DNA of 64,000 bases from Brachyhypopomus gauderio. Its lineage: Eukaryota > Chordata > Actinopteri > Gymnotiformes > Hypopomidae. Positions 6,578 to 61,859 of this stretch are shown in pieces. The stretch is from NCBI RefSeq assembly GCF_052324685.1, contig NC_135225.1, positions 4,050,201-4,114,200 of the forward strand, in the 5' to 3' direction. How positions within the stretch are numbered: position 1 is the stretch's first letter; the number at the start of each line of letters is the position of its first letter. The notes under the pieces were generated by a model. The model ran no database searches. It was not told the DNA's origin and saw nothing but the letters and a program-made list of their open reading frames with translations. The position numbers and the translations under genes were made by a program.

Positions 6578-8688
6578 ATGAGCAACTCTCAATCCTTCTT
6601 GTAGCTTTATAAAACCTGCTATCTGTGCTATCTGACTCAGAGTATTTGTGTTGATGCTATACTTATTCTGTGACCCTGTCACAATATATGAAGTCAAAAG
6701 TTTCAGTACAAATATTGAAATCCTTTTCAGAAAGGTTTTGCATTGCAGAGGTTTCTACAAGTACTTGAAAATTATATACAATATACAAACAAAAAACCCT
6801 TACTTTGACTATTCAGACCATTTTAAGCCTTTATAAGACAGGTCTCTAAAACGGGCAGCGCAAATCCTTAGTTTGAGCTGATACTTTCTCCTTGCTGGTT
6901 TGGCAGGCTTGCGTTGCTTTAGAAAGAAGCAGTTCTGCCCATAATCCTCGTGCAACAACATGCCTTTGAAGTATGCTATGGCAGTCACATAGTTGTGGTT
7001 GCCATGGGCTTGATAAAGATAAATTCTGAAGCAGTGCTTCCTTAACACCAGGACACTGCGTAATCTTCCACTGACAGATGAGGCCAAAAAAGCAGAGCTC
7101 ATTCTCTTCCACTGCCACATCCTTAGTTAGTTATGCTGCTATGGATTAGCCTGCTGGAGCCATATGCTAATCACTGGCACGTGAGCTATGTACATTTAAA
7201 TCAATGGTGGTTTAAACTGATGTCCACACACTCAGTCTGTATTGTCTATCTTTTTGCATGCTTCTACCCAAGACAATTGCATGCAAGCACCTACAAGCAC
7301 CTGGGAGATGCCGGGTTGGATGTGCCATTGCCGCAAGAGGACGTGCTGATGCTAGCTCCTACCTGAGGCTCACCATCTGCACTGAAGAGACTGTGGCTAC
7401 TTGGCTGGGGAACTTGAACCTTAACTATAACTGTAGAACCACCTTTTGTCCACAAATACGGACTTGTGCTAACGGGCCGCCCAATGGAGGATGGGTTCCC
7501 TTTTGAGTCTTGGTCCTCCCGAGGTTTCTTCCTAATCCCCACCATCATAGGGAGTTTTTCCTTGCCACTGTTGCCTATGGTTTGCTCATTAGGGATCTGG
7601 ACCCATACTATTGTAAAGCTGCTTTGTGACATGTGTTGTAAAAAGAGCTATATAAATACATTTGACTTGACTTGACATTCTACTAGTACCACAGCTCTGT
7701 ACCATCAACAATAGTTTCCTTACAACTTCTACTTTGGTAAATTTCATGCAAACTCTCCCGAGCAGCTGGTATATATACTTCAGTATGTTCACTGACTTCT
7801 AAGTGTTATATTTTAGAAGCAGTTAATTGGCGGTTTTATTTAACTTGTTTTCTAATTCTGAAGTTATGTAATGCCTGACACTCGTTAGTCATCATGAGAG
7901 CACATTTCTTACATTTATTTGACAGTCTTGGTTACAACATTTACAGACACGATTTGTTAAAGGATTTACCTTAATTTTTAATTCTCAGTCATAGTTTTTT
8001 TTTTTTTGCTTAATAGTTGCAGTCTTGCAATTAAAATATGACAAACCTGTGCCTAGGCATCTTATATTCACAGTATGCATAGACCATCAATAGACCGTCA
8101 CCTGTTAACAATTGCTGACAAATGTTAGATTACATACTAGTTAATTCAGCATGTGGTCTGATGCTAGATGACATACACTTTACAAACATATGACCACATT
8201 ACACTTTGTAATGACATTTGAAGTGATATTAAATCAATATTTTGCAAGTGTTTTCTATTTAAAAAATTGATTATGAGATGAAAACATTAACAGAATACAT
8301 ACTGAACAGCTACTTAAACTAAAACTTTATTAAAGTTCTTACACTATTCCAATCAATAACATTTACACATGAAGACCAAAATATTTTTGTTTTTGTTAGT
8401 GTTACTGAACCCATCTAAGGTTTCAAAGCAAAACTTCACCTTACAGTGAAGTATAGATTCATTATATATTACAATCATTTTACATACCAAAATAAATAGA
8501 ACCACATGTTCTATGAACTCTGTGACTTTGAAGACCTCTATTGTAAAAAGCCTTTATTGAGCTTTTTTGTGATTAACACAAAATATTGGGTTTTATCGTC
8601 TTAATCCTTAAGGAAAGTATACATAGTGTAAAATTATTTGTCAAGATAAAAGGTGAATAAGCTATATAAAACAATAAAATACCAATTA
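6578..8688. other. No gene seen outside the listed repeat
   Basis: Apart from the dispersed repeat at 7466-7678 this holds AT-rich sequence. Overlapping minus-strand frames at 6809-7120 (two frames over the same bases) match no family I know. Confidence 0.5.
7466..7678 (+). repeat. Dispersed fish repeat, 3' portion
   Basis: It carries gaggtttcttcctaatcccc, gagtttttccttgccactgt and aaagctgctttgtgacatgt and ends in a (TTGACTTGAC)-type tail. This arrangement occurs in very many copies in teleost genomes; the class is not known to me. The open frames across it on either strand are not genes. Confidence 0.6.
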
Positions 8689-9285
8689 CACAGGTCTGCA
8701 AAAAAATATTTTTAAAAAGTTGTTTGAAATTTGATAACTGTTTTTTATGTATTTCTCAGTGCTGATTTCAAAAATGCAATCCATTTTTTTCTATCACGTC
8801 AGGTTTTCTCACAAAAAAGGGATTATTTTTGGGCAAAATAACAAAATTTGACCAATTTTTCACATTTTTCAAGCCCAAAAAGCCCAAGACTTATCTTGAT
8901 CACCTAACTTTTTACCAAAATAGGCAAAATATACCTTTTCAACAAAATCGGAGATGTTTCTTGGTCGCTTTTTAATGGTATAGTTACCACAAATGTAGCA
9001 GAAGCAATCTGGTGAGTTTATACATCCTCTGGTAGCCATTGTCCATAAAACACCTTGTACTTTAGGCTAAATAACAGTTTGTGGAGATCTTAAAAACCAA
9101 AATTCAAACTTACTAGAGTACTGAACTATTTATAAAAAATATTGAAAAAGCTAAAACTAGACAAGCAGTTTGTGAAATAACTGCACATGATGGAATTTTT
9201 TCACTATTTTTCCCAAAATCAGCGTTGAAAATACTATAAAAATCACTTATTAAATTTGAAACAATTTTTATGTCGCAGACCTGTG
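8689..9285 (-). mobile_element. Short TIR element carrying the N-terminus of an orphan transposase-like family
   Basis: A 597-bp element with perfect 11-bp terminal repeats (CACAGGTCTGC) that continue as imperfect repeats for about 45 bp, flanked by TTA on both sides (8686-8688 and 9286-9288). The 3-bp duplication and CAC-A-G ends recall CACTA/EnSpm-type elements; Harbinger is the alternative. Inside is a short minus-strand frame related to the element at 17502-19037. It looks like an internally deleted, non-autonomous derivative. Confidence 0.75.
8869..9039 (-). pseudogene. Truncated N-terminal module of an orphan transposon protein
   Basis: A 56-codon frame starts MATRGCINSPDCFCYICGNY and ends with AYFGKKLGDQDKSWA and then a stop. 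The cysteine spacing (C6, C12, C14, C17) and the GDQDKSWA signature belong, from memory, to a widespread family of uncharacterised proteins in hydra, arthropods and fish whose N-terminus is a zinc-binding module. The family normally continues with His/Cys pairs; here the frame ends at once, at the deletion point of the element. Confidence 0.7.
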
Positions 9286-9523
9286 TTATTATTCTCTTAA
9301 TTTTCTATAATGTAGTTCATGATAAACCATTCTCTACATGTGTTGATAAGTTAAAAACGTTTACAGTGTATGTACTAAAATATGATTTAATATGTACATT
9401 TTAGGTTTTTATGAATGTATGAATTTACGAGTGCATGCTATTGCAATGCACATGTGCAGATTTTGCACCATAACACAACATTTGAGAAGATTTTGATAAG
9501 GAAATAAAACTGGACTTGACCAG

Positions 9524-10095
9524 TGTTGTGATTTTCATCTTAATCCCTTCATAGTTTGTTTACATTACAGTATAGAATCAACAGCTTATCATAATTTATA
9601 TATTTTGACAAGTCAAAGTATTAATCAAATCTCTAATATTAATCACTATATGTTTTGCTTACATTATATTATTGCTCAAGTTGTTTATTAGTAAGAATGT
9701 CGGTATAAGCGCTTGTGTGCCTTCCAATACTCTATGCGTTTGCAGTAGGCTAAAAATGGGATGTGTGAGAGGAGGCTCACTGTGACCTTATGTGGTAAGG
9801 CCAGGTAGTAAGACCTCGCTTCCAGAATAGAGACAGCTGTAGGTTGAACAATGGAATGTGCAGTTCCTATGTTTAGGAAGGAAAGCATATATAATGGTGA
9901 AGAGAGCAGACAGCTTCAGAGCTGCACATGGGGTGACATGATTAGGTAATGTGAGCTCTCCAGAGATCTCTGTATTAAATTAATTAATAGGCCTATGTGT
10001 ATTTTTTAATAAAAGGATAAAGACAAGACTGGTAATGTTTTCTTTTGCAATCAACGAACACGCTGCGCTAAGGTAAGAGAAGGTTAAGCGCGACA
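9524..10095 (+). repeat. 5' LTR of the retrovirus-like element
   Basis: 572 bp, TG...CA ends. TATATAAT at 9888-9895 and AATAAA at 10008-10013 are placed as a promoter and poly(A) signal would be, giving a short R region between them. Confidence 0.92.
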
Positions 10096-10098
10096 TTT

Positions 10099-10116
10099 TG
10101 GTGACCCCGACGTGAT
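10099..10116 (+). other. Primer binding site, tRNA-Trp type
   Basis: TGGTGACCCCGACGTGAT begins three bases after the 5' LTR. It is the complement of the 3' end of vertebrate tRNA-Trp, the primer also used by avian alpharetroviruses. Confidence 0.85.
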
Positions 10117-10325
10117 TGCAAAATAATTTGGAACTTTTTTCTTTTCATCTAATGACTGACAGTTTGACCGTGCCGGCACAACAATAGTGGTAAAGCAGAA
10201 CCTGTTAAAACAAATCTGCAAAATTTGAATTGCAACTAAATTGTGGTGAACTGACAGTACTTGGATGATTCTAAATTAAATCCAGTCTTGTCTAAAAAGG
10301 TAAAAGTATAAGTATACTATGGAAA

Positions 10326-10507
10326 ATGGGTTTGAGTCCCATAAAGGTGATTTTAGGGTTCGAGTCCCTACCGGCAAAATGAAAGCTAACAAGTTTTTGT
10401 GTAATAATGAAAACTAACAAGTTTTTATTTAAGGTTTATTCCGTGGTGTGGCGGCCGATCCGTTCCTTTGACGAGAGGAACGAGACCTACGCAAGTTCGA
10501 GTCTTGC
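10326..10507 (+). other. Three tRNA T-arm-like hairpins in the element's leader
   Basis: Each is an exact 5-bp stem with a 7-base loop: 10326-10342 (loop TTTGAGT), 10354-10370 (loop TTCGAGT) and 10491-10507 (loop TTCGAGT). The last two carry the GTTCGAGTC-type sequence of a tRNA T-arm and B box. A further hairpin (CGTTCCT...AGGAACG) lies at 10461-10482. No full tRNA cloverleaf was found around them. Confidence 0.7.
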
Positions 10508-11766
10508 TAGCTAGGTATTGATATTAACCTTTGGATCTTGAGGAGTCCATAAATTAATATTATTTCGATAAAGCAAAAAGCCGGATAATGCACCTGAATT
10601 GATTGAGGATGGTAAAACCTCACGGTGTCAGAACGGAACTCTCGTTCTATATTTAGAACTTCTGGGTGAGTATCTGTTTTTATCAACGTATGTAACTGGT
10701 GAGGAAAATGCAAGTTTTATAAATGGTTTTAAGTAGAATATAATGTTAGTTTTAAGGGTATGGAGTACCTTAGTGGAACAGATGAGTGTGACTAGTAAAG
10801 TGATTCATACTATTGAAGAATATCATAAGCAGTGTGATATTTGAAGGGCTGGCTGTTATGTGACAGTATGGGTGACCAACACAGAATCGTGTGTCCTCAG
10901 ATGTAATTAATTGATCAAAATAAAACATTAGAGTCTCGTATGTAATATGTGACTCCTCCCTCATTTGTATTTAATTTATTCAGGTTTCCCCTTTGGTTTG
11001 GTCCTGCATATATTTAGTATCAGCTGTACCTTGTGTCTTTGGCGATTACGTTGAGTATTCATTTGCATAGTAAGTAAGGCGTGCTGTGGGTCATGTTGTA
11101 TAATTAAGTCTATTGCATCTGTTTCTGTTCCATGCATTGTTTGCATATTGTATATAAGTTCTCCTTGTGTCTGGTCGGTAAAGCTTAGTGATCGTGCGTG
11201 GATATTTTCTCGTCCTGAGATTACTTGTGTTTTACTTCTGAGTTAAATTTCTCAATTTCGCACCCTCCCCTAGTCTCAGACTATACTTTGTGGGTTCATA
11301 TATTGTCATTGTTTGAGTGTTGAATATGTTTCAGGCCAACCCATAGTCTAAAACTATACTTTAGGGATCATAAAACAAGTCCGGTTGTTAATAAGTTCGT
11401 GTGTCGTTTATTGTGTTGAATAAGTTGGGTTCGCTATGCTGACGGTCTTTGTTATACTTTAAATGGTTGCTGGGTTTGTCCTGTTAATGACAGTTGTTTC
11501 TCTGTATCCCATATATATATTGGCTATAAGTCATCGGATAAATTTCTTCCTTCGTTGTTTAACAAATAGCATAGTATGTGCTTTGTCTGAGGTGTTATAG
11601 TTTTGATTGTAAGTGGGTGTATTTAATTTCCTCATAATTTCTTATATCTTAACGCTAGGTTATGTCATTTAGTATTGAAATCAGGATTGTTTGTACACAG
11701 TATGGGTTTTGTCCCTCCTCTGTATTTAGTAACTAAGTAATCAATCTTAGTTGAACGTCTAGAGAA

Positions 11767-12090
11767 ATGCCTCAGCGCGCGCACCTGTTGCGTAGGGACA
11801 GTGTGCCTAGACAAGCGGACAAGCGAGCAAAAAGTAAAATTTCATTCGTGTATTTGCCTCCGCCTCTTAACCAAGAATTGTTACATCGCCGCAAAATAGA
11901 CCAACTGGCTAAAGTGCACACGTTTAACTCGCAAAATTATCAAACGCTGAGAAGATTTAGCTCTGTGACACATGTACAAATACTGTTTGCTGGGGGTTGT
12001 TCATAACCAACTAGAATGAGCGGGGTCTGCACAACAGATATTCAGGAAGATACACCACAGCCACCGTATGAGTTAAACTCGGTAATGCCC
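11767..12090 (+). pseudogene. Possible gag remnant of the retrovirus-like element
   Basis: A 79-codon frame starting at 11767 is basic and lies where gag is expected. A short frame after it contains QPPYEL near 12060, which fits the PPxY late-domain pattern of retroviral gag. No matrix or capsid signature is visible, so this is a weak call based on position and one motif. Confidence 0.3.
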
Positions 12091-12607
12091 ACTAACTAAG
12101 TTATCCAGGAATTAATGTAAAAACAGGAATCGTACAAATGGATAAAATCGACGACGTGGAGTTTAAAACGCGCGAGTTACCCTTGACATTGAATATTAGT
12201 ATTTAATGCTAAAAAAGGGAACGCATGCCGTGGGGTGAAGGGTAAACTGCGTTTTAAAAGAGACTTGGATGGAGTAGTTATAAATAGCACACACACACAG
12301 CGAAGTGACTTGAGTGAGGTAGACATGTCAGTGAAACGGTGAGGTATTTGGATAGCTAAAACTGGACAAGCTGACAGCAGCTAGAGAGCTTGGCTCTGGG
12401 ACACTTAGAGGAGTGGTGGTAATTATAATAATAATAAAAATAAATACTTGAAATCGTTTACACTGTGGGCCTTGAAAATATAATCCAGGAAAGTAGCTTT
12501 TTGAATAATAATCAATGTTTCTATGTTTTTCTAATTGTTGGAATAGGTCTGTATGTTGTCAGTTTAATATGAGAAACCTGGTGCCAGGTAAAGTGACTAG
12601 GAAATGT

Positions 12608-12975
12608 TAAATAATAATAATAATAATAATACTTTGTATTGGTATAGCACCTTTCAAACATACATGCAACTCAAAGTGTTTTATAGAATAGACAAAAAAG
12701 AAAAATGTTAAAAGAAATTAAAGATAAAAGAAATCAAACATAATAAAAGAATGTAATAGAGTGACAAATTATAAAATAATATTGCAATAAAGAAAGTAAG
12801 ATGGCAATTAGAATAAAGTTGGAGTTTCTTAATTAAAAGCAGATCTAAACAGGAAGGTGTTGAGACTCTTCTTGAAGCTGGGCAGAGATAAAATGTCTCT
12901 GAGCAAGCTGTTGCAATCTAAAAGATCTCAGAGCACAGGGGATCCGCCCCAGAGACCTCAATATGTCCCCTAAGT
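12608..12975. repeat. Dispersed repeat nested in the retrovirus-like element
   Basis: An (AAT)n run is followed by ttggtatagcacctttcaaa, an A-rich stretch and a segment on clusters of agatct. This type of sequence is scattered widely in fish genomes. It interrupts the middle of the element, so it arrived after the ancestor of this lineage had begun to decay. Class unknown. Confidence 0.5.
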
Positions 12976-14744
12976 GTATTATTTTATGCAGTAGTATTAA
13001 CAGTATGGGTTTAACCTAAATTTTAGAAGAAGGGGTTTTGGGAAGGGGCAAGGAAGGTCACAGTGATCCTGGCAACTTCGTTGTGGCAGGTGGGGTGGAT
13101 GCTTTCTCTTTGTGTTCAGGAGAGTCATTGGGTGAAAGAGAGTCCCCACAGAACCGTAGGATGAAGGAGGGCCAGAAGTCAGAGGTCCAGCACCAAACCC
13201 TTCTGCAGTACCAGGGCAATGGCGGGGCCCTGATGAGAACTTGGACAGCAAAGCTACGGCAAACCCTATGTTGTCCCTCACTGGCGGTACTCAAAGACTA
13301 TCATTTCTGGCTGGAGAATATCAAAGTCTGCACAGAACTGTTCAAATGACTGTACAATGTGGCCAGCAGGCCACTAAACACAGGTTCCTGAGATCAAAGA
13401 CTGCACCTGTTAACCTGTGGAAGAGACATTACAAATGCACTGTTTACAGACAGCAGACACCTGATGCACCTGAAGTCCACAGACTGGCCTCCACGGTTGC
13501 TATCTACAGGGGTTTCCTGAAGTCTCACTCATGAGCCGCGAGGGGCGTCCACTCCCAGTTCATTTCCTGGAAGCCAGATCACTTTGATTGAACCTTTGTC
13601 CTGCCACCCGACCCAGTTTGTTATATTGTTGTATGACATAGGAGGGGATCCAATTCATGGGAGGAATTTGAAGAACAGCTACAGGATCAGGTAACCTAGG
13701 TTACTGGGGCCTGAGGGGCGGCAACCCTGCAAAGCTGAGACATGCGCAACAGTGCTGGTAGATAATGGGAGATTCCGCCACTCCACAAATCTAATTATCT
13801 TCACACCCTGGTCACATGGGTAAGGAGTAGGTAAACATGATAGGAAACCAGTACAACAAGGCATCGGGTAACAACTAACTTTCTGAGTGGGAGCTAATTT
13901 AAATCTTGTAATAACTAGTGTATTAAAATAACTTCATTTGACTAGTATTTTCCATCTCAAAGAAGGACTTATTTTAAGTTTAAGGACTTAAAGTTTAATT
14001 TATTAAACAAAAACAGACATTGGCATAGGCTGTGGACTTAGCAAATTACTGATTAAAACTTATTACTCTTTTTAGAAGTTTCTGAAATACATTCCTGAAT
14101 GATATTTCAGTAAAGGGGGAGATACACCTGTTAGACAACACCATGCACACAGCATAGGTTGTACGTACAGAGTGACAAGATAACAAAAGGGGGTAAGCTT
14201 AGAGACAGAGGCAAATAGGAGCACATTAGATGGTTTGCAAGGCAGACCACAGGACTTAGAGCTATGTAAAGTACAGGAGAATTGACCCCAGAGAAAAAAT
14301 TTAAGAAATAGAGTACTTAAATAAAATTTTATTATTAAAATAAAATAGCATTGCTGAGTAAATATGGTAAGAAATAAGGAAGTCTGGAAAGGACAAAATG
14401 GGAAACCAATTTTATAGAATCTATTGATCAATCCAGTGTTAACTGAGGCACACAGGGTAGCACGTGGGTAGAAATAAATGAAGAAAAATTTTGGTTAACT
14501 GATGGCACCTATACTGACGTAATAGCAGTCTGGACAGAGTAATGTGATATTTGAGACATGCATAACAGCTGTCATGCTTTAAGGAAAGGTCTAAGCAGGC
14601 TCCCTGGACCAAAGGAGCTAAGATAGGATATTATAATTCTTTGTTAATCACTCAGTGGGGAAATTTGCATTGTTACAGCAGCAGAGAATTGTGTAAGGAA
14701 ATACACATATCTAAGACTATGTACAAATGCAATGAAAATAGGAG

Positions 14745-15480
14745 ATGAAGTTCAGATTGACTACATGGGTATGGAAATACCAATACGGGGATTAAGCTAT
14801 TTGTTAGTGGCTGAGGATAAATTCTCAGGTTGGGTAGAAGCATTTCCACCAGGGCAGATGACTCGAGGTCAGTCTGCAGAATGTTGATAAAAATTACTGG
14901 ATACTGCACCATTGTTTACTAAATTAAGTATGCTCAGATAATGGGATGCACTTCACTAGCTGGGAGCTAAAATTTGTGGAACAAAATTTGGGTTTGAGAC
15001 ACAAATGTGGGTTGGTTTATCATTCTCAATCTCAGGCTAAAATGGAGATTATAAATGGTAAGTATAATGGTAAAGGTAAAGGAAAAGGTATGTGCACAAA
15101 GGTATTTATATGGTTGGCCAGAAGATCTTCAGTGAATTTTGTTGCAGGATTCACTTTGTTTGAGCTCATGACAGTGAGAAGTTTTCGGGGGTCCCCCAAT
15201 GCGCTTGCGAAACCTGACAGGTACACTCGGGGTCGTACAAGGAAGGTTACAGTGAACTAAAAAAAGTAATTTGTGAAGCTTATTCTGTCCAGGTACCAGG
15301 AGAGGAGTTAGAACCAACGGACCTGCCGGTAACCAAATGGGTCCTGCTTAAGGTCATCAAAAGAAAGTGGTCAGAGCCCAGGTGGACCAGTTCATTCAAG
15401 GTCACTAAAGAGAACATCACACGCTGTCCGATTGAAGGGCAAAGGAGAAACGTGGTACCACCTCAGCCGGTGCTGAGCAT
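14745..15480 (+). pseudogene. Broken integrase region (retroviral pol)
   Basis: Short matches in shifting frames give the order of a retroviral integrase. A catalytic-core start (QIDYMG, then LVAEDKFSGWVEAFP) lies at about 14751-14850, a second core block (SDNGMHFTS, then YHSQSQAKME) at about 14936-15045, a FELMT-type block at about 15160 and a C-terminal block (WVLLKVIKRKWSEPRW) at 15338-15385. In-frame stops and frame changes separate the blocks, so no active enzyme can be made. The type points to class I retrovirus-like pol. Confidence 0.75.
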
Positions 15481-16488
15481 CAGAACCAGCGCGCCGAGAT
15501 ACGGAGCTCTCAAACGACAGGTCAAAATAACACCTGAGAGCGGAGGTTCAACAATCAGGTAGTCCACCCTGACCTCCTTCGCGGGATAAGAAGATAATCT
15601 TGCCTCCAACAGGGCGGAAGAATAGATGATGCTGCAGTAAAAGTTTTGTGATGTATTTGGATGTTTAGTAATATTGTCTAATGTTGTTTTACAGGCCTTG
15701 TGTAACATTGTTTTTTGTCTATATGTTTTTATATTATCATTGAAAGTAGTAGCATTGTGATTGTTAGTATTTAACAACATGTTAAAGGACCTTACAGGGG
15801 ACTGCCCCCTGTGCATATGGATCCATGGTGGGTCAAGGCCAATATTGTTGTAATAGTAGCTGCATAACTGAGATCCCTTGGAGAGTTTCACATAAAGCTT
15901 TAGGAGTTGATAATCATACTACTGGCCGGCTGGGACGGCCATTTAGCAATAATAAAGTTCAAAGGTAAGCATTATTGTTCAGAGAGACGCACATCGTACC
16001 AAGAACCTAGTTATTCTATCAATAGAATTGGGATGTTTTCATCTGGAGTACTGGCACATCTCTAGTGTAGGTCGTGTACTGTATATCTAGTAATAGGAGT
16101 GGGCCAATTGGGTTAAGACCCCTTAGGCCTAATTAGGATAAACATAGTATGGTTTAGACCTGCCCCAACACTGGGACCATCACTGGAAAATACGTCAGAA
16201 ATTAAGATATAAGGCATTCATGGATCAGATTATACTAAATGGACACGACAGCAGATAATTGAATTGACTGTCTTATTATGTCTGTGTTAACTTCTGTGGG
16301 AATACTTTTGACTTATGATTACAGGTGAATGTTGTTGTCCAATGTAGAAGAAGCTTAGTGGGAAGCTTAATCAGCAGTAAGATTGAGAAGCAGGAACCAC
16401 AAAGATGTTTGGGTATGATGTCATAGTTGGAGTCAGAAGATGAAAAGGTAGTTTTGGATTAACTTAAAGTTTGATCTATTTAGAGATC

Positions 16489-16500
16489 AAAAAGGGGGAA
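16489..16500 (+). other. Polypurine tract
   Basis: AAAAAGGGGGAA one base before the 3' LTR, as expected for plus-strand priming. Confidence 0.85.
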
Positions 16501-16501
16501 T

Positions 16502-17073
16502 TGTTGTGATTTTCATCTTAATCCCTTCATAGTTTGTTTACATTACAGTATAGAATCAACAGCTTATCATAATTTATATATTTTGACAAGTCAAAGTATT
16601 AATCAAATCTCTAATATTAATCACTATATGTTTTGCTTACATTATATTATTGCTCAAGTTGTTTATTAGTAAGAATGTCGGTATAAGCGCTTGTGTGCCT
16701 TCCAATACTCTATGCGTTTGCAGTAGGCTAAAAATGGGATGTGTGAGAGGAGGCTCACTGTGACCTTATGTGGTAAGGCCAGGTAGTAAGACCTCGCTTC
16801 CAGAATAGAGACAGCTGTAGGTTGAACAATGGAATGTGCAGTTCCTATGTTTAGGAAGGAAAGCATATATAATGGTGAAGAGAGCAGACAGCTTCAGAGC
16901 TGCACATGGGGTGACATGATTAGGTAATGTGAGCTCTCCAGAGATCTCTGTATTAAATTAATTAATAGGCCTATGTGTATTTTTTAATAAAAGGATAAAG
17001 ACAAGACTGGTAATGTTTTCTTTTGCAATCAACGAACACGCTGCGCTAAGGTAAGAGAAGGTTAAGCGCGACA
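16502..17073 (+). repeat. 3' LTR of the retrovirus-like element
   Basis: 572 bp, base-for-base the same as the 5' copy by eye. It follows the polypurine tract directly and is followed by the ccag target duplication. Confidence 0.92.
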
Positions 17074-17501
17074 CCAGCGATCAACAGGTGGACTTTGCTG
17101 GCATTCTATAGCAGCCAGTACACACATATGCCTGCCAGATGGTGCAGAGAGAGGATGGTGTCTCCTCACATAAAGTTTTCACTTGTGCTTGTGATGAATA
17201 ATTTTCACACAGAGATGGTGCTCAGAGGCCAAATGTTCAGCTGATTATAGATGGCATATTCTCTGGATCCTTACTATTTTTGGCCTGGGTGTCAACATAA
17301 AATATTCAACTTGCTTTAAATGAATGTGTATATGTGCCTTTACACACATGTGCTTTTTGAATGATCAATAGCATTTAGAAATTTCACATATTTTCAGTAT
17401 GTGTGATTATATTGGGATGTTGTGCTAGTAATATATCCCATTCAATTTAATAGCACTGCAATTAAGTTGAAAAACAAGCTAAAATCTGGCACCTAAGATA
17501 A

Positions 17502-19037
17502 CACTGCACAACAAATTTTTTGCTTCTTGAACACTGTTAGGTGTTTCTCATAGATTTTTGGGTGCTGATCACGAATATCACATCAAAATGTATGTAGAAA
17601 TCTTCAGCTTTATCATAATTTTTGCTTACATTTTTATCCAAACATCTCACTCCAATAAGTGACTTATCAGCAACAGTTTGTGCAATTTGGGCATGTCCAG
17701 GCATGTATATCCTAATCTGCCTTCAGCAATGAGACCTGTGCCACATGACAACAGTCTCCCAATTCTGAAACCGCCCAAGGATTGGATCTTAGACAAACCA
17801 GAAAACTCTAGTGCAGGGTAATGACAGTGACATTGACCCAGATTTTGAACCTTGCTCATAAGGTGATCCACATCTGATAACACAGACAGAATTGAACGAT
17901 TTGGTCAGAGATTTGGGTCTGTCAAAAGCAAAAGCCGAGTTGCTGGGTTCCAGACTGCAGGGATGGTGTCTGCTGTCACCAGGTACGAAAATTTCTGTGT
18001 TTAGAAGCCGACATCATGATATCACCAAACTTTTTTGCACAAGTCAACAATCTCTGTTGTAACATTGAAGGATTGTTCTCGGCCTTGCGTTGTGATCACA
18101 ATCCGGAAGAGTGGCGTCTCTTCATTGATTCGTCAATGCTAAGCCCGAAAGCTGTTCTGCTACACGATGGCCACGTTTATCGGTCAGTACCTGTTGGCTA
18201 CGCAGCACACATGAAGGAAACATATGAGAATATTGAACTGTTGCTCAAGCACATCCAGTATCGCAGGTACAACTGGAATATCTGTGGAGATCTGAAAGTC
18301 GTTGCTCTGTTACTGGCACTGCAGCTCGGCTACACCAAGTACTGTTGTTTCATCTGTGAATGGGACAGCCATGCTAAAGAGTCACATTATTGTCGACAGA
18401 GCTGGCCACTACGCAAAAAGTTAGTTTTGCCTCCTCTACACATAAAACTTGGACTCATGAAGAATTTTGTGAAAGCACTGAACAAGGAAGGCGAAGGTTT
18501 TCGCTCTTTAAGACAGATGTTTCCAAGAATAAGTGATGTGAAGATCAAAGAAGGCATTTTTGTTGGTCTCCAGATCAGACATGTTATGTGTGACATACCA
18601 GAAAATGAAGTGCAACATGTCACTCAAGATTCACTTCCTTCACTAACACTTGTGACTTCTTCCCTGTGACTCTCGGTGCAGTCAGTGACGAACACGGTCA
18701 GCTGTTTCACCAGGACATTGCTACAATGAAGAAACGTTACCAGGGCAACTGGAATCCATCAATGCTTGCTGACTACTGTTGGACACTGCAACGCGATGCA
18801 CCAGAAGTTGAATACAAAAGAAAATCAGTAGCAAAACATTTTTAATTCTGTTGAACTTAATGGCTCATGCGGAACATAAACGTGATTAAATAGGTAAACA
18901 TATAAATGTCAGTTTCTTAGAGTTCCTACGTGATGCAGTAAAACAAAAACTATATTTGTGCATACCCTATACGTACCTGTCACAATCACCTAAAAGTTTT
19001 CAGGAAGCAAGACTTAAAAAAAAATTGTTGTGCAGTG
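17502..19037 (+). mobile_element. CACTG-ended TIR transposon with transposase-like pseudogene
   Basis: 1536 bp between inverted ends that read CACTGCACAACAA and then a T-run, GCTTC-TGAA and TTAGGTG, about 45-50 bp in all with small gaps. The flanks are TAA on both sides (17499-17501 and 19038-19040). The ends and 3-bp duplication fit a CACTA/EnSpm-like DNA transposon. It encodes the decayed protein at 17703-18845. It is a different family from the 8689-9285 element but shares the CAC(T/A)G start, the duplication type and the protein family. Confidence 0.8.
17703..18845 (+). pseudogene. Orphan-family transposase-like protein, frameshifted
   Basis: Recognisable blocks in order: YPNLPSAMRPVPH (17703), ELNDLVRDLGLSKAKAELLG then PGTKISVFRSRHHDI (about 17891-18030), EEWRLFIDSS (about 18107), HMKETYENIELLLKHIQY, WNICGDLKV then LQLGYTKYCCFICEWDS (about 18274-18370), PPLHIKLGLMKNFVKALNKE (about 18430) and LGAVSDEHGQLFHQD then YQGNWNPSMLADYCWTL (18672-18800), ending in TAA at 18845. 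The longest open piece is 217 codons from 18016. Frames change near 18040 and 18660, an early stop precedes 17890, and about 70 family residues before LGAVSDEHG are missing. Conserved acids (LFIDSS, ICGDLK, SDEHG) would suit an RNase H-like transposase, but that is inference. Confidence 0.75.
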
Positions 19038-19040
19038 TAA

Positions 19041-28364: not shown

Positions 28365-31300
28365 TTATTTCCCCTCATTTTCATCTGTAGAGGAATCTGC
28401 ATGCCTTAAAGATGTTTCAGAGATCATTATAATTTTTTCACCTGACTCTGCACCCTCAAAAAATCTCATTTTCTCAGTGTGTACAATATCTTTAAGTTTT
28501 TGAATTGAGGAAGCTGTGTCATCAGTGATAGGCTCTGCAACACCTCCCTCAAAAACTTGTGTTCTTGATGTCACAAGCACTTTCTCATCACTTAAGATTT
28601 CTTCCATAACATGCTTTTCTATTAATGTGTGTTCCTCCTTTAAAACTCTGTGTGTCTCAACTGATAACACTGAGTCAGATGTTATTGTCATTTCTTCTGC
28701 AGGTAATGTTTGAATAACTTGAGAACCTAAATAAGTTAGAATTGTAGCATGCTGTGTGTCTGGTACTGTTTGTACATTTGATTTTATTATGTGAACTTCT
28801 CCTGACATCTGCTTCAGTGTGTTCAATGAAGAAGAAGAACTTTCATCAGAGAATGGAATGTTCACTTTCTCTGGCTGGTGGGGCTCCATGAAAATTAGTT
28901 CAGTACTTGTTGTTGAAGTAATAACGTCACCATGCAAGTCACTCACCTCAATAGTTGGTTCGGAATATTTTACTTTGATCTTTGTAGGGGAGGCCAGTGA
29001 AAGGCCAACCTGTTCAGTTGTCGGTGCACTTAGATCAGCAAAAGCTTCAGATGACCTAAGTGACAATGTTGGACTGACATTATCCTCTTCAACCTCTACT
29101 GTGGAACTCTTCTCAGCCCCTTTTGCCTTAATGTCAACCTCTGGACACTCATGACCTTTTCTGGGTGATTGAGAGTCTTCCTGCTCATTGACCTTTGCTG
29201 TATTGGTTGGAGAGGATAACTTGTTTTCAAGAACAGCCTCTGAATTCACAATATTATCACTCTCATCTGAAGGGTGGTTGAATCGCAGTTTGGGAATTGT
29301 AAACCTAAGCATAGATTTTTCTTGAGCTCCTCCTTTATTTGTTGTTACGCCTTCTTTAGAATCCTCACCTTTCACTCCAGTTACATGTTCCTGTTTTGTG
29401 GGAGTTTCCTTCTTTGTTTGTTCAATTTCATCTAATTTTGGCACAGTGAATTCAACATCAAAGCCCCTCAGAACATCAGCAAATTTGGGTATGGTAAATT
29501 TGGAGGACTTTTCTTGTCCTTGTGTGATTTCTTTATGTTTGGGTTCTGGAGCACCACTCATGACTGCATCATCTTGTCCATCCTGCAACTGTGATTTTGA
29601 AACAGTAATTATTGGCATTTTCATGGTGAGAGGTTTGAATCTACTTGGAGAGCCTTCTTTGTGTTTAACAGCTGCTTCTGGAGATTGTTGAACTTTGTCT
29701 TTAATTTCAGCTTCTGCTTTAGAATCTTTCCATTTAATATGATCATTTATTTCAGGTTTTATATCTGCTATATCCATTTCCATGCAAGATTTTCCTTCTT
29801 TATCTACACCAGGCCCTTTTGGGTCAACAGATAGCAGCTCGTATGAAACTTTTAACTCTGCTTCGGGTTGACTTATTTCAGGTCTTGGAACTTCAACATG
29901 CACAGCAGAGACGTCTAATGCTGCCTTTGAAGTTTTAGTTCTGAATTTTGGGAAAGACATTGAGGGAAGTTTAAATTTTGTTGGAGATTCAAACTTTGTT
30001 TCATCTGTTTGTCTAGTATCATCAATTGAAAGTGCAACATCTGAACCTTCCATTTTTCCATTTTCGTCTGGTAAAGATACATCAACTGGTGGGACGCTCA
30101 CATCAGCTTCAGGGGCCTTAGTTTCAGGTTTAGAGAAACCAAACTTGGGAAATGAAAAACCGGATTTCTTCATTTTTATTTCAATATCCTTAGAATCTAC
30201 TTCTGGTAAATTGACTTCCACTTCAGATTTTATGTTTGGTATTTCAAGATCAGATGCATGCACTTCTCCCTTTCCTTCTGGGAGAGCAATGTCCGTCTGA
30301 GTCTTGCTTGCATGCAAGTCAATTTTTGTTCCTTTTACTTCTGGAATACTTATTCCAAATTTTGGCAATTTGGACTTCTTTTCTTTTTCTACAGTTTGAG
30401 TTTTTGTCTCAACACTGAGAGATTTTCCCTCTTTGTCTCTTTCAGGCACTTTTATATCAACAGGTAGGGGCACAGCTGACACAGACATCTCTACTTCCGG
30501 AAGATGTATTTCAGATCTTTGAATTTGTTCATCCACAGCAGCAGAAATATCTACTGATTCCTTTGTAGATTTAGCTCCAAATTTTGGAAGGGAAATTGAA
30601 GGAAGTTTAAACTTTGTTGGAGAGCCAAACTTCATTTTGTCCTCTTGTCCAGTATCACCAATTGAAAGTGAAACATCTGTGTTTGTTTCTTCGATTTTTA
30701 CATTTTCTTTGGTTAAAGACACATCAACTTTTGGAAGAGTAATGTCAGCTTTGGGAGCTTTAGTTTCTGCTTTAGAAAAGCCAAACCAGGGGAAGGAAAA
30801 GCCTGTTTTCTTTGCTTTTACTTCAAGACCTTTAGGATCCACTTCTGGCAAGTTTCCCTTCTCTTCAGATTTGACATCTTTCATTTCACCAGCAGACACA
30901 TGCACCTCTGCTTTTACCTCTGGAAGAGCAATGTCAGTCTGAGTCTTGCTTGCAGGTAACTCTATTTTTGGTCCTTTTACGTCTGGAAAGCTTATTGCAA
31001 ATTTGGGCAATTTGAACTTGCTCTCTTGCCCTTCAAATTGGTCATCTTGTGGTTTCACTTTAAGAGATTTCCCCTGTTTGTCTGTGTGAGGCCCTTTTAT
31101 CTCAACTGCTATTGCATCGGCTGGCACCTTTAACTCTGTTTGCTGAAGAGTTATGTCAGGACCTTTCATATGCGCACTCACAGAAGAAATGTCTTCGGCC
31201 TCCTTTGTAACTTTAGCTCCAAATTTTGGGAAGGAGATTGTGGGCAGTTTAAACTTTGTTGGAGAACCAAACTTTGGTTTATCTTCTTTTCCTGTATCAC

Positions 31301-34300
31301 CCATTGCAAGTTTAATGTCTTCTATTTTCACATCTTCTTCTGCTAAAGATGCATCAACCTGTGGGAGACTCACATCAGCTTCAGTTGTCTTTGTTTCTGA
31401 TTTAGACAATCCAATCTTGGGCAATGAAAAACCTGATTTCTTCATTTCTACTTGAACACCTTGAGTTTCACCTTTTGGTAAATCTAATTTCACTTCAGTT
31501 TTTACATCTGGCCCTTCAACATCAGGTGCATGCACTTCTCCCTTTCCCTCTGGTAGAGAAATGTCTGTCGTTTTGCCTCCATGTAAGTCTATTTTTGGTC
31601 CTTTAACTTCTGGAAAGCTTATCCCAAATTTTGGCATTTTGAATTTGCTCTCTTGCCCCTCAATTTTCATGTCTTCTGCTTTTATATCAGCAGTTAGAGA
31701 CTTTATTTCTTTGTCTATGTCAGGTGTTTTTATGTTCAATGACATGGGCTCACTTGACACTGCTACCTCAGTTTGGGGTAGACTTATTTCAGGTGCTTTA
31801 ATTTGCACATCCACTCCAGAAATGTCTACTGACTCCTTTTTAGCTTTAGATCCAAATTTTGGGAGAGAGATTGTGGGCAGTGTAAACTTAGTTGGAGAGC
31901 CAAACTTCAGTTTATCTTGTTCTCCAATATCACCCATGGTGAGATTAACATTTGCATCTGGTCCTTCTACTTTTACATCTTGTCCTGGTAAAGATACATC
32001 CACCTGTGGGAGACTCACATCAGTGTCAGGTGCTTTTGTTTCTGATTTAGACAATCCAATCTTGGGCAAGGAAAACCCTGATTTCTTCATTTCTACTTGA
32101 ACACCTTGAGTTTCTCCTTTAGGTAAATCTAATTTCACTTCAGTTTTTACATCTGGCATTTCAACATCAGGTACATGCACTTCTCCCTTTCCCTCTGGTA
32201 GAGAAATGTCAGTCGTTGTTTTGCTTCCATGTAAGTCTATTTTTGGTCCTTTAACATCTGGAAAACTTATCCCAAATTTTGGCATTTTGAATTTGCTCTC
32301 TTGCCCATCAATTTTCATGTCTTCTGCTTTTATATCAGCAGTTACAGACTTTACTTCTTTGTCAATGTCAGGTGTTTTTATGTTCAATGACATGGGCTCA
32401 CTTGACACTGCTACTTCAGTTTGGGGTAGACTTATTTCAGGTGCTTTAATTTGCACATCCACTCCAGACATGTCAACTGACTCCTTTTTAGCTTTAGATC
32501 CAAATTTTGGGAAAGAGATTGTGGGCAGTTTAAACTTAGTTGGAGAGCCAAACTTCAGTTTATCTTGTTCTCCAATATCACCCATTGCAAGATTAACATT
32601 TGCATCTGGTCCTTCTACTTTTACATCTTGTCCTTGTAAAGATACATCCACCTGTGGGAGACTCACATCAGTGTCAGGTGCTTTTGTTTCTGATTTAGAC
32701 AATCCAATCTTGGGCAAGGAAAACCCTGATTTCTTAATTTCTACCTGAACACCTTGAGTTTCTCCTTTAGGTAAATCTAATTTCACTTCAGTTTTTACAT
32801 CTGGCATTTCAACATCAGGTACATGCACTTCTCCCTTCCCCTCTGGTAGAGAAATGTCAGTCGTTGTTTTGCTTCCATGTAAGTCTATTTTTGGTCCTTT
32901 AACATCTGGAAAGCTTATCCCAAATTTTGGCATTTTGAATTTGCTCTCTTGCCCATCAATTTTCATGTCTTCTGCTTTTATATCAGCAGTTACAGACTTT
33001 ACTTCTTTGTCTATGTCACTTGTTTTTATGTTCAATGACATGGGCTCACTTGACACTGCTACTTCAGTTTGGGGTAGACTTATTTCAGGTGCTTTGATTT
33101 GCACATCCACTCCAGAAATGTCTACTGACTCCTTTTTAGCTTTAGATCCAAATTTTGGGAAAGAGATTGTGGGCAGTTTAAACTTAGTTGGAGAGCCAAA
33201 CTTCAGTTTATCTTGTTCTCCAATATCACCCATTGCGAGATTAACTTCTACATCTGGTCCTTCTACTTTTACATCTTGTCCTGGTAAAGATACATCCACC
33301 TGTGGGAGACTCACATCAGTGTCAGGTGCTTTTGTTTCTGATTTAGACAATCCAATCTTGGGCAAGGAAAACCCTGATTTCTTCATTTCTACTTGAACAC
33401 CTTGAGTTTCTCCTTTAGGTAAATCTAATTTCACTTCAGTTTTTACATCTGGCATCTCAACATCAGGTACATGCACTTCTCCCTTTCCCTCTGGTAGAGA
33501 AATGTCAGTCGTTGTTTTGCTTCCATGTAAGTCTATTTTTGGTCCTTTAACTTCTGGAAAGCTTATCCCAAATTTTGGCATTTTGAATTTGCTCTCTTGC
33601 CCCTCAATTTTCATATCTTCTGCTTTTATATCAGCAGTTACAGACTTTACTTCTTTGTCTATGTCAGGTGTTTTTATGTTCAATGACATGGGCTCACTTG
33701 ACACTGCTACCTCAGTTTGGGGTAGACTTATTTCAGGTGCTTTGATTTGCACATCCACTCCAGAAATGTCTACTGACTCCTTTTTAGCTTTAGATCCAAA
33801 TTTTGGGAGAGAGATTGTGGGCAGTTTAAACTTAGTTGGAGAGCCAAACTTCAGTTTATCTTGTTCTCCAATATCACCCATTGCGAGATTAACATTTGCA
33901 TCTGGTCCTTCTACTTTTACATCTTGTCCTGGTAAAGATACATCCACCTGTGGGAGACTCACATCAGTGTCAGGTGCTTTTGTTTCTGATTTAGACAATC
34001 CAATCTTGGGCGAGGAAAACCCTGATTTCTTCATTTCTACTTGAACACCTTGAGTTTCTCCTTTAGGTAAATCTAATTTCACTTCAGTTTTTACATCTGG
34101 CATCTCAACATCAGGTACATGCACTTCTCCCTTTCCCTCTGGTAGAGAAATGTCAGTTGTTGTTTTGCTTCCATGTAAGTCTATTCTTGGTCCTTTAACT
34201 TCTGGAAAGCTTATCCCAAATTTTGGTATTTTGAATTTGCTCTCTTGCCCCTCAATTTTCATATCTTCTGCTTTTATATCAGCAGTTACAGACTTTACTT

Positions 34301-37300
34301 CTTTGTCTATGTCAGGTGTTTTTATGTTCAATGGCATGGGCTCACTTGACACTGCTACCTCAGTTTGGGGTAGACTTATTTCAGGTGCTTTAATTTGCAC
34401 ATCCACTCCAGACATGTCTACTGACTCCTTTTTAGCTTTAGATCCAAATTTTGGGAGAGAGATTGTGGGCAGTTTAAACTTAGTCGGAGAGCCAAACTTC
34501 AGTTTATCTTGTTCTCCAATATCACCCATTGCGAGATTAACATTTGCATCTGGTCCTTCTACTTTTACATCTTGTCTTGGTAAAGATACATCCACCTGTG
34601 GGAGACTCACATCAGTGTCAGGTCCCTTTGATTCTGAAATAGACAGTCCAATCTTGGGCAAGGAAAACCCTGATTTCTTCATTTCTACTTGAACACCTTG
34701 AGTTTCTCCTTTAGGTAAATCTAATTTCACTTCAGTTTTTACATCTGGCATCTCAACATCAGGTACATGCACTTCACCCTTTCCCTCTGGTAGAGAAATG
34801 TCAGTCATTGTTTTGCTTCCATGTAAGTCTATTTTTGGTCCTTTAACATCTGGAAAGCTTATCCCAAATTTTGGCATTTTGAATTTGCTCTCTTGCCCCT
34901 CAATTTTCATGTCTTCTGCTTTTATATCAGCAGTTGGAGACTTTACTTCTTTGTCTATGTCAGGTGTTTTTATGTACAATGACATGGGCTCACTTGACAC
35001 TGCTACTTCTTTTTGGGGTAGACTTATTTCAGGTCCTTTCATTTGCACATCATCTCCAAAGATGTCTACCTCTGCCTTTGGTGCTTTACCTCCAATTTTT
35101 GGGTGAGAAATTGTGGGCAATGTAAACTTTGTTGTAGATCCAGGCTTCATTTTGTTGTCTTCTTCTGTAAAACACATTGCAAGTTTAATGCTTGATTCTG
35201 GACCTTCTATTTTTACATCTTGTCCTGGTAAAGATACATCAACCTGTGGGAGACTCAATTCAGCATCAGATGCTTCTGTTGATTTAGAAAATCCAACTGT
35301 GGGCAATGAACCACCTGGTTTCTTCATTTCTACTTTAAGACCTTTTGAATCTCCTTTTGGTAAATGTAAATTGAGTTCTGTTTTTACATCTGACATCTCA
35401 ACATCAGGTACATGCACTTTTCCCTTTCCCTCTGGTAGAGAAATGTCAGTCGTTTTGCTTCCATGTAAGTCTATTTTTGGTCCTTTTACTTCTGGGAAGC
35501 TTATCCCAAATTTTGGCATTTTGAATTTGCTCTCTTGCCCCTCAATTTTCATGTCTTCTGCTTTTATGTCAACATTTAGAGACTTTGCGTCTTTGTCTAT
35601 GTCTGGTTTTTTAATATTCAATAACAGGGGCTCAGTTGACACTACTACCTCTGATTGCGGTAGACTTATTTCAGAACCTTTCATTTGTGCATCTTCTCCA
35701 GAGATGTCTACTGACACATTTGGAGCTTTAGCTCCAAATCTTGGCAGGGAGATTGTGGGCAATTTAAATTTTGTTGCAGATCCAACCTTTATTTTGTCTT
35801 CTTCTCCAGAATCACACATTGTAAGTTTAATGTCTGCATCTGGTCCTTCTATTTGTTCATCTTGTCCTTGTAAAGATACATCCACCTGTGGGAGACTCAC
35901 ATCAGTGTCAGGTGCCTTTGATTCTGATTTAGACAGTCCAATCTTGGGCAAGGAAAAACCTGATTTCTTCATTTCTACTTGAACACCTTGAGTTTCTCCT
36001 TTAGGTAAATCTAATTTCACTTCAGTTTTTACATCTGGCATTTCAACATCAGGTACATGCACTTCTGCCTTTCCCTCTGGTAGAGAAATGTCAGTCATTG
36101 TTTTGCTTCCATATAAGTCTATTTTTGGTCCTTTTACTTCTGGAAAGCTTATCCCAAATTTTGGCATTTTGAATTTGCTCTCTTGCCCCTCAATTTTCAT
36201 ATCTTCTGCTTTTATATCAGCAGTTACAGACTTTACTTCTTTGTCTATGTCAGGTGTTTTTATGCTCAATGACATGGGCTCACTTGACACTGCTACCTCA
36301 GTTTGGGGTAGACTTATTTCAGGTGCTTTAATTTGTGCATCATCTCTAGAGATGTCTACCTCCACCTTTGGAGCTTTCGCTCCAAATTTTGGTAGGGAGA
36401 TTGTGGGCAATTTAAACTTTGTTGCAGATCCAACCTTCATTTTGTCTTCTTCTTTAGTATCATGCATTGCACTTTTAATTTCTACATCTGGTCCTTCTAT
36501 TTTTACATCTTGTCCTTGTAAAGATACATCCACCTGTGGGAGACTCACATCAGCTTCAGTTGTCTTTGTTTCTGATCTAGACAATCCAATCTTGGGCAAT
36601 GAAAAACCTGATTTCTTCATTTCTACTTGAACACCTTGAGTTTCTCCTTTTGGTAAATCTAATTTCACTTCAGTTTTTACATCTGGCCCTTCAACATCAG
36701 GTGCATTCAGTTCTCCCTTTCCCTCTGGTAGAGAAATTTCTGTTGTTTGGCATCCATTTAAGTCTATTTTTGGTCCTTTAACTTCTGAAAAGCTTATCGC
36801 AAATTTTGGCATTTTGATTTTGCTCTCTTGTCCCTCAATTTTTATGTCCTCTGCATTTATGTCGACATTTACAGACTTTGATTCTTTGCCTACCTCAGGT
36901 GTTTTTACATCCACTGATAAGGGCTGACTTGACACTAATACCTCTGTTTGGGGTAGATTAATTTCAGGACCTTTCATTTGCACTTCTGCTTCAGAGATTT
37001 CTACTGCTGCCTTTGGAGCTTTAGTTCCAAATTTTGGAAGGGATATTGTGGGCAGTTTATACTTTGTTGATGATCCAACCTTCCTTGTGTCTTCTTCTCC
37101 TGTATAGCCCATTGCAAGTTTAATGTTTGCATCTTGTTTTTCTATTTTTACATCTTCTTCTGGTAAAGATACATCAACTTGTGGAAGACTCACATCACTT
37201 TCAGCATCCCGAGTTTCTGATTTAGAAAAGCTAAACCTAGGGAATGAAAAAACTGGTTTCTTTATTTCTGCATCTTGACATTTAGAATCTACTTTTGGTT

Positions 37301-40300
37301 TTTCTGATTTTACTTCAGTTTTTAAACATGACACTTCCACATCAGATTCGTGCACTTCTTCCTTTCCTTCTTGTGCAGAAATATCAGCCTCTGTTTTGCC
37401 TGCATGTAAGTTTATTTGTGGTCCTTTTACTTCTCGAAAACTTATGTCAAATTTTGGCAATCTGAATTTACTCTCTTGTCCATCGATTTGGATGTCTTTG
37501 TGAAATTTTCCTTTTTTGTCGTCATCAGGACCTTTAATGTTAAGTGATAATGGCTCATCTGACACTGTTACTTCTGCTTGTTTTAGACCTGTTTCAGGAG
37601 CAGGAACCTGTGATTCTACTCCCGAGACGTCTACTGCCACTTTTGACGTTTTGGCTCCAAATTTTGGCAAGGAAATTGAGGGTATTTTAAATTTTGTTGG
37701 AGAGCCAAACTTTGTTTCATCTTCTTGTTTTTTATCACCCATTGAAGGTGTAATCTCTGTATTCTCAACTTCCACATCTACATTTCTTTCTGGTAAAGAC
37801 CCCTCAGCATTTTTAAGAGTCACATCAGCTTCTGTGATTTTAGTGTCAGACTTAGAAAATCCGAATTTAGGAAATGAAAAGCTTGAGCGCTTTGTTTTCA
37901 TTTCATGATCTTTGCAATCTTCTTCTGGTACATCTTCTTTTATATTTGCCTTTGCATCTGGCATTTCAACCTCAGCTGCATACGTTGCTGGCATATCTGT
38001 TATAGAAATCTCAGTATCTTTTTTGGAAGGACTAAAATGCATCTTTGGCACTTTTACTTCTGGAAAACTGATCTCAAATTTTGGTAGCTTGAACTTGCTT
38101 CCCTGTCCTGCCATTTCAGTACTTTGAGTCTTCTCATCAACATTATACAACTGTACTTCTTTGGCCAAATCAGGACCTTTCTTGTCTGGAAGACTTTTTC
38201 CTATTCCAAACTGTTCATGTATAGGTATATCTGCCTCCTTTTTTTCATACTTTGTATATGACTTTGAGCGTATGTTCTCTATTGTATGTAGTTTTAGGTC
38301 TTTGTCTTCAGGAAGATAAACATCTTTCAAGCTGGTATCAGTTTGAGGTACATCCACTTCAAATTTCTTAATCTTTATTTCTCCAGCATCATTTTTATGG
38401 ACTTCTGTTTTTGGAAAATCAGTTCCAATATCTGGGAACCGAATGTCAGGTTTGGTGATTCCAAAGCTTGGCATGGTTATTTTTGCTTTCTTTGATTTCT
38501 TTTCCTGTCCTTTCTGGTTCCCATATTTCTTCGTTTTGGTCTTTTCACCAGGTTGTATATCTTTGTCTGCTTTGATTTTTGTCTTTTGTATATTTGATTT
38601 CTTTATGGCTTCCATCCCTGGTATTTCAATGTCTTCTCGCTTTGGAAGTTTGAATGTAACCTCTGACATTTTCTCATCATCTGTGATTAGCATTGTATCA
38701 GTGTTTGGTTTTGAAATGTTTGGCTTTGTATAATCTAATTTTTTTATAGCTACTGAAATTTGTTCAGGATCATAATGTAGCTCAACATTTGGTATTTTGG
38801 TCCCAAGGTCTTTATCTGCAATATCAGAAGCTGATGACTTTTCTTTACCCATTTGGCTTTTAGTTAATGTAGTGCTACTGTCTGCACTAGTCACAGATAT
38901 TTTACGAGGAGAACCTCTAGGGGTTATGTTAGACTTATCTCCCTTCATTTCCATAATTGTGACTTCCCTTTGTACAAGCACGCCTGTAACATCACCCTCA
39001 GGTAGTTTAAAAGCTGGAAATTTGGAGACAGCCACTTTAACATCCTCAACACTGAACTGTTCATCTGTTTGGTGAGCCTGGATTTTCACCTCTTTAGTAA
39101 TATTAGTAATCTTCTCTATTTTGGGTACCTTAATTACAGGAGCCTGAAGACATGGTTTAGCTTCTATCCCTGGAATCTCAATGTCTTCTCTTTTTGGGAG
39201 AGAGGTCTTCATTTGCTCTTGTTTTGTCATTTTTATTGGGTCTTGTGTTGCAAATTTGGAGAAATCAACATTTGGCAATTTAAACTTTGATTCAGATTTT
39301 TTGTCTACATCTGCTATTAAGTGGTCAGTATATGTCACTGTGGGTAGCATAAACTTTTTTATTTCCAAATCCTTCATGTCTAAAGCAGAAACTGAAGTGT
39401 CTGTTTTAGATTTTGCTTGGGAAATATCAGGTATGACAAAACTTGCTTCCTGTGTGTCAGTGATAGCGCTCTCTTGTTTCTTGTCAGAACACTCTGGTAG
39501 CAAGAACTGAAACCCATCCATTGCACTAGCAAAGTGAGGCTTTGTTGTAGCCATGTCAGCCAATGGACCTCTGATTCGAATCCCATAACTCTCATTTTCA
39601 AATACGTTTCTTTCCTTCAACTCTTTTTCACCACCTGTCGTCTGTGGTTTTTTCAGTTCTCCTACACTAAATAATTCTAGAGAATCATCTAATTTTGGTG
39701 TGGTCATTTTTGTATTTATGGATACTAAGTCTTCCTCTGAACTGCCCTTGATGACCACCTGTGTGTTTAAGTCAGGGTTAAGCTGAAATCTTTCAGACTC
39801 TGCCTGTGATATTACAACAGGACTTACTCCATCATTGTCAGAAGCACATATATCTGAAATTATATTTTCACCTGATTGGTTACCTATTCCTGCATCCGTT
39901 TTCTCTTTCTGATGAATGTTAACTTTCATTTCAGATCTCTCCACCTTTCCTTCCTCCAGGGTCCTCATAATACCTGCAGAACCCTCTGCAAATGTAACTG
40001 AAATATCTGTAGTCTTTAATGTATTGCCCAAACTAATATAATGAACCTTATGTTGCTGTTCCATTTCTGACAAACTTGAGAGTGCATGGTCTTGCTTGAT
40101 CTTGGAAGATATCTCACTCTCAGTTTCTTCTGCTACATGTGCAGTGTCTTCCAATTTTGCTGTAACTTCTTCAGGCAACTTTTCTTCCACACTATCAACT
40201 TGTAGATTTTCACAAACTGCCATGTTCTCTGTTATTAACTCCTTCCCCTTTCTCTGAGGTTCCTCAACAGATTTGCTCCTGTAGCCTTTCGTCTTGCCAC

Positions 40301-58803: not shown

Positions 58804-59077
58804 AGTACTGTTCCTCCACAGGGTGTCCCAGCATCACATCCAAGGGGATCCTGACATGCCGGCCAAACATGAGATAGGATGGTGTATACCCTGTGGAACT
58901 ATGGACAGTGTTATTATAGGCATGCAGCATTTCGGGTAAGTAATCAGCCCACCTTTGTTTCTTTTCATCCACCAGGGTTCCCAACATTCCAAGTAGGGTC
59001 CGGTTGAAGCGCTCGGTGAGGCCATTACCCTCAGGATGGTAGGGAGTGGTATGACTCTTTACAGCCATATAGTTCAC
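58775..59077 (-). pseudogene. Gypsy integrase, second part of core
   Basis: PYHPEGNGLTERFNRTLLGM carries the third catalytic acid (Glu of the DDE triad); then HAYNNTVHSSTGYTPSYLMF and GRHVRIPLD, typical of the end of a gypsy integrase core. It is out of frame with both neighbours. Confidence 0.85.
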
Positions 59078-61855: not shown

Positions 61856-61859
61856 TTTG

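Follow-up and report, generated by a model that had tools for sequence, protein, structure and literature searches.

Two decayed DNA transposons of probable Chapaev3 type in the genome of Brachyhypopomus gauderio

We analysed a 64,000-nucleotide stretch of the Brachyhypopomus gauderio genome (contig NC_135225.1, positions 4,050,201 to 4,114,200; hereafter the window) in which two elements bounded by terminal inverted repeats (TIRs) carry remnants of a transposase-like gene. Overall, element 1 (8689..9285, 597 bp, remnant gene on the minus strand) and element 2 (17502..19037, 1,536 bp, plus strand) are best read as decayed, non-autonomous members of two Chapaev3 families, that is, of cut-and-paste transposons of the CMC/CMCT group with an Asp-Asp-Glu (DDE) transposase, and we put the probability of this reading at about 0.9. 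Element 1 is recognized as an internally deleted, non-autonomous Chapaev3-type element by its TIRs, its target-site duplication, its coding content and its copies in the same genome, and element 2 is an internally deleted and frame-broken one.

With respect to boundaries, element 1 begins with the TIR CACAGGTCTGC at 8689..8699 (plus strand) and ends with its reverse complement at 9275..9285 (minus strand), giving the perfect 11-bp pair CACAGGTCTGC/GCAGACCTGTG. Its TTA target-site duplication lies at 8686..8688, preceded by A, and at 9286..9288, followed by T. Element 2 has a perfect 13-bp TIR pair, CACTGCACAACAA/TTGTTGTGCAGTG, with CACTGCACAACAA at 17502..17514 (plus strand) and its reverse complement at 19025..19037 (minus strand), and its TAA duplication is likewise preceded by A (17499..17501) and followed by T (19038..19040). 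A scan of the window for exact 11-nt CAC...GTG inverted pairs, separated by under 4 kb and flanked by an equal 3-bp duplication, returned these two elements and no others; dropping the duplication rule raised the yield to 18 pairs. Across 200 dinucleotide shuffles the corresponding yields were 1.6 pairs per shuffle without the duplication rule and 0.005 with it, and a TTA- or TAA-flanked pair arose in none of the 200. Scan and shuffles thus agree with an earlier note, made from the sequence alone, that had placed two TIR-bounded elements with TTA/TAA duplications at these positions. Inside the TIRs of each element lies a longer, imperfect inverted repeat whose score was reached in 0 of 500 shuffles in both cases.

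Elements 1 and 2 belong to two separate element families and are not two halves of one element, because their TIRs differ. Comparison of the subterminal ends of one element with those of the other gave a weak likeness of left end to left end (matched in 2 of 500 shuffles), and the other three pairings were at chance level (185, 151 and 337 of 500 shuffles).

The coding remnants were aligned to P0122, a 555-residue family protein. In element 1, an N-terminal Cys module and the block GDQDKSWA occupy 8881..9030 of the minus strand, a span of 50 residues with 56% identity to residues 3-52 of P0122. The pieces in element 2 are distributed over three plus-strand frames: YPNLPSAMRPVPH... (17696..17812, approximately residues 106-136), PHLITQTELNDLVRDLGL... 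(17862..18059, residues 167-230), the catalytic core (18070..18594, residues 221-429), NMSLKIHFLH with the first part of the H(4)H motif (18584..18637, residues 470-487) and the C-terminus (18654..18842, residues 493-555). The core holds the first catalytic Asp in LFIDSS (codon 18127-18129) and the second in ICGDLK (codon 18289-18291), together with C(2)C in CCFIC and LH in LPPLH, both in frame; the catalytic Glu sits in SDEHG of the C-terminal piece (codon 18690-18692), all three codon positions having been counted by hand. The H(4)H motif is interrupted by a stop codon. All the blocks named in the earlier note are therefore present, GDQDKSWA in element 1 and SAMRPVPH, LFIDSS, ICGDLKV, CCFICEWDS and LGAVSDEHG in element 2. 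A check that it proposed came out in its favour as well: the acidic residues in LFIDSS, ICGDLK and SDEHG occupy the D, D and E positions. Its statement that element 2 encodes the rest of the protein holds for the blocks, but the element is internally deleted and its frame broken.

In full-length proteins such as P0122, all of these blocks occur in one chain. A search with the core, whose length restricts candidates to approximately 141-450 amino acids (aa), returned 2,176 family members among 2,618 candidates, and one with the homologue P0028 returned 3,014 among 5,266; the best 120 matches of each search were listed. The best-scoring homologue among the best 120 of the 2,176 is P0001, a hypothetical protein of the fish Metynnis hypsauchen with 82% identity over 68% of the query, and 96 of the best 120 of the 3,014 are 550-566 aa long. 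Among the matches listed, the source-named hosts are a fish, turtles, a frog, insects, a spider, a pseudoscorpion, crustaceans and a mollusc, plus one Klebsiella label, and the proteins are named uncharacterized or hypothetical, with a single SAM domain-containing protein. The Klebsiella pneumoniae label belongs to P0008, which is 58% identical and comes from a 716-bp contig; contamination of the bacterial record by animal DNA is the most likely explanation. Prokaryote species genomes, a collection of contigs of at least 3 kb, yielded no confirmed relative, and the 4, 19 and 17 pattern-matching stretches found in viral and prokaryote contigs likewise included none that was confirmed. Sequence searches of the PDB gave no relevant match.

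In the family alignment the catalytic residues are nearly invariant (D in 77 of 77, D in 77 of 77 and E in 71 of 77 sequences, the remainder being 5 gaps and 1 Ala), as are C(2)C (77/77), LH (77/77) and H(4)H (74/77, with 3 gaps), and the N-terminal Cys/His-rich module is conserved as well. A predicted structural model places the catalytic acids at the strand and helix positions of an RNase H fold; the predicted match spans residues 186-551 only, and its structural neighbours are Transib (HzTransib, PDB 6pqx) and RAG1. Motif and predicted fold together support a DDE-type transposase, and the structure prediction proposed in the earlier note as a check on its transposase claim came out in that claim's favour.

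Transib transposons make 5-bp target-site duplications and Chapaev transposons in the strict sense 4-bp ones. The duplications here are 3 bp, and both identities were rejected on that ground; for Transib the likeness is one of predicted fold. The RAG1 recombinase core differs in being a domesticated host enzyme that works with RAG2. EnSpm/CACTA elements resemble ours in their CAC ends, 3-bp duplication and C(2)C plus H(3-4)H motifs, the last being common to EnSpm, Mirage, Chapaev, Transib and RAG1 in the available part of PMC12730594. The ends here are CACAG/CACTG, however, the window duplications are TWA, and the protein features stand nearer to the published description of Chapaev3.

In terms of named systems, the closest agreement is with Chapaev3, as represented by Merrow, Garfield and Conan. 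The portions of PMC4079192 available to us describe CAC/GTG ends, a 3-bp TWA duplication that always lies between A and T (within a general range of 3-4 bp), and a DDE transposase with C(2)C, LH and H(4)H, in hosts from Hydra to arthropods, lampreys, fish and lizard; the ends, A-TWA-T targets, motifs and animal hosts found here are alike. Published transposases are approximately 556-562 aa in elements of approximately 2.3-2.45 kb, as in Garfield_BM (2,289 bp, 556 aa; PMC4079192, in part), and the copy L088 described below, with 560 codons in 2,288 bp, is of the same size. The short element 1 has its counterpart in fish Merrow copies of 304-833 bp (PMC4079192, Table 1). A 'Chapa' zinc-finger domain is ascribed to Chapaev3 in the accessible text of PMC4411706, which puts Chapaev and Chapaev3 together with Transib and RAG1 and cites Repbase Reports of 2007 and 2008 for Chapaev3; CMC-Chapaev-3 also appears in the parts seen of a teleost and a Hydra repeat survey. 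There are differences. The two TIR families here may be unlisted subfamilies, and L088 has a single unbroken frame, in contrast to the two exons of Merrow and Garfield; most other Chapaev3 are said to have one exon (PMC4079192, same portions). Because the testable published features fit in the main, with these and the further exceptions given below, we file the elements as Chapaev3. Database proteins with the LFIDSS/ICGDLK/SDEHG blocks number in the thousands and are very probably transposases of this kind too. The family falls in the group that includes CACTA/EnSpm, near which the earlier note had put it; its label of an 'orphan' family is not supported, the features being those published in the two Chapaev3 sources.

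We searched the rest of the genome (796.5 Mb, 840 contigs) for copies. The gene is multicopy: 112 stretches match the 193-residue core, although one copy may yield more than one stretch. Thirty loci were fetched for the core; several overlap, and many of the copies are broken or truncated. Four copies, L088, L071, L072 and L002, are bounded by TIRs and 3-bp duplications. One of them, L088 (G000:C1:25364700-25367700), spans 2,288 bp with ends CACTGGTTTACAA/CACTGGTAAACAA and has 560 uninterrupted codons, counted from the first Met. L071 (1,938 bp, TTA duplication) carries the TIR of element 1 with one substitution on the left side and codes for residues 3-549 over three frames, with a gap at approximately 293-354, and it illustrates the appearance of element 1 before internal deletion. 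A further copy, L014, was placed by eye between A|TAA and TAA|T, and its ends are less symmetrical.

Twelve element-1-type copies were collected (the window copy and 11 fetched), of which 10 had both ends placed and 2 were dropped; a TWA duplication flanked by A and T accompanies 6 of the 10, window copy included. Short copies with element 1 ends vary in their middle (8873-8995; L073-L081), and the matches of most of these copies break at approximately 184 and 308 of the element, although in several of them gapped alignments continue across at 80-85%. At least two kinds of deletion derivative exist, because L073 retains an N-terminal coding bit like that of element 1 and L077 and L081 retain C-terminal bits. 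L074 and L076, whose flanks are identical, seem to be a single insertion that was duplicated.

Two other contigs hold copies of about the length of element 2, 95-96% identical (L002/L053 and L052/L085). The TIRs of element 2 recur in L002, together with a TAA duplication that is followed by C instead of T. A stretch of 53-54 bp, as computed from alignment offsets, is missing from the window copy, L002, L085 and L084 and kept in L082, L083, L086, L087 and L088. Since the flanks of the window element 2 are unique and unlike those of L002, it seems that a deleted form went on to spread once the deletion had arisen. Several element-2-type copies also lie within 280 kb of a 1.5-Mb contig (G000:C53:385410-665940), perhaps through local duplication.

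A number of results weigh against the Chapaev3 assignment. The name, though very probably right, is founded on shared features, not on named Chapaev3 proteins aligned or placed in a tree. When five window pieces and seven homologues were scanned against Pfam, no family scored above its cut-off, and comparing the family profile with the genome's own RAG1 gave a non-significant result (probability 0.3%). The blocks had been said to belong together in multicopy proteins of hydra, arthropods and fish; full-length proteins such as P0122 bear out that they belong together, but Hydra is absent from the named hits among the matches listed. A search for TIRs around full-length copies had been proposed too, and the best copies, L088 and L071, have them; most of the 30 core loci, however, lack a clear pair. 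A strict scan passed 2 of the 30, the window copy included, and under relaxed criteria 5 had a TIR pair with a duplication, L005 and L026 being doubtful, while the near-full-length L086 showed no convincing pair. L088 itself has the duplication TGT rather than TWA, mismatches at 2 of 13 TIR positions and a Tyr in place of the first His of H(4)H. The TWA duplication is missing from 4 of the 10 end-placed element-1-type copies (L073, L074, L076 and L081). Finally, the empty sites proposed as a check did not turn up: joined-flank searches for elements 1 and 2 recovered their own flanks only, and none was found for L088, one flank of which is a common repeat, with the listed matches covering little or nothing of the other; one of the joined-flank searches scored 40 of 561 candidates.

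Part of this evidence would suit a separate, unnamed CMC/CMCT lineage that shares Chapaev3-like ends and target rule and has a distinct transposase clade. The link to the name goes by shared features, no Pfam model matches, and the named homologues among the matches listed are uncharacterized or hypothetical apart from the SAM domain-containing protein. We nonetheless consider such a lineage quite improbable, as the ends, the A-TWA-T target, C(2)C, LH, H(4)H and the lengths of protein and element mostly match Chapaev3, and the named hits listed are animal, as for Chapaev3, bar the one contamination-like bacterial label.

It is barely credible that the coding remnants represent a host gene family with coincidental inverted repeats beside them. 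Some members are annotated as uncharacterised animal genes, and most fetched genomic copies have no clear TIR pair, but the shuffle test and the TIR-bounded copies elsewhere led us to reject this explanation, and the 112 matching stretches in one genome and the predicted transposase fold speak against it as well. Equally far-fetched, and likewise rejected, is a single larger element whose ends were split by the long terminal repeat (LTR) retroelement at 9524-17073: elements 1 and 2 do flank it and hold complementary protein parts, but each has its own TIR pair, its own duplication and separate genomic relatives sharing its boundaries, the TIRs differ, the coding strands are opposite, and the LTR element has, by eye, its own CCAG duplication.

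That retroelement has LTRs of 572 bp each (9524-10095 and 16502-17073), 100% identical, with TG...CA ends and a 4-bp duplication. The identical LTRs and an interior with no sense-strand frame of at least 130 codons suggest a recent insertion of a defective copy mobilised in trans. Elsewhere in the window, the minus strand carries a Ty3/Gypsy-like element at 59031-63547, whose overlapping frames by eye correspond to gag with a zinc knuckle, protease, reverse transcriptase/RNase H and integrase, and a 4,064-codon open frame at 28365-40559 made of degenerate repeats (GPKIDLHGSK..., GFSLPKIGLSKSE...), resembling AHNAK-type giant proteins.

In terms of mechanism, an intact Chapaev3 copy would encode a transposase of approximately 555-560 residues. 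Its N-terminal Cys/His-rich module is probably the 'Chapa' zinc finger and would likely bind the element ends, and its RNase H-fold catalytic domain, with D, D and E, would be interrupted by a putative zinc-binding insertion, C(2)C ... LH ... H(4)H. If it works as its structural neighbours Transib and RAG1 do, the transposase would bind the TIRs, pair the two ends and excise the element, which would insert into a staggered cut at A-TWA-T to give the 3-bp duplication. The chemistry, including any hairpin step, may be RAG/Transib-like, and deleted copies such as those in the window could be mobilised in trans by intact relatives.

With respect to meaning, these results close an annotation gap and add no new kind of element, since Chapaev3 has been described in many animals before. 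With a Pfam model, proteins with the LFIDSS/ICGDLK/SDEHG blocks could more easily be excluded from animal gene sets, and the predicted fold match to RAG1 and Transib backs the relationship between these groups that has been published on the basis of motifs. That a Chapaev3 lineage was active recently in the B. gauderio genome, or still is, with a RAG/Transib-type transposase that also mobilises internally deleted copies, is rather doubtful. If there is such a lineage, it would offer a convenient vertebrate test of a RAG-like hairpin pathway in Chapaev3, and could show how a RAG-type core yields 3-bp rather than 5-bp duplications.

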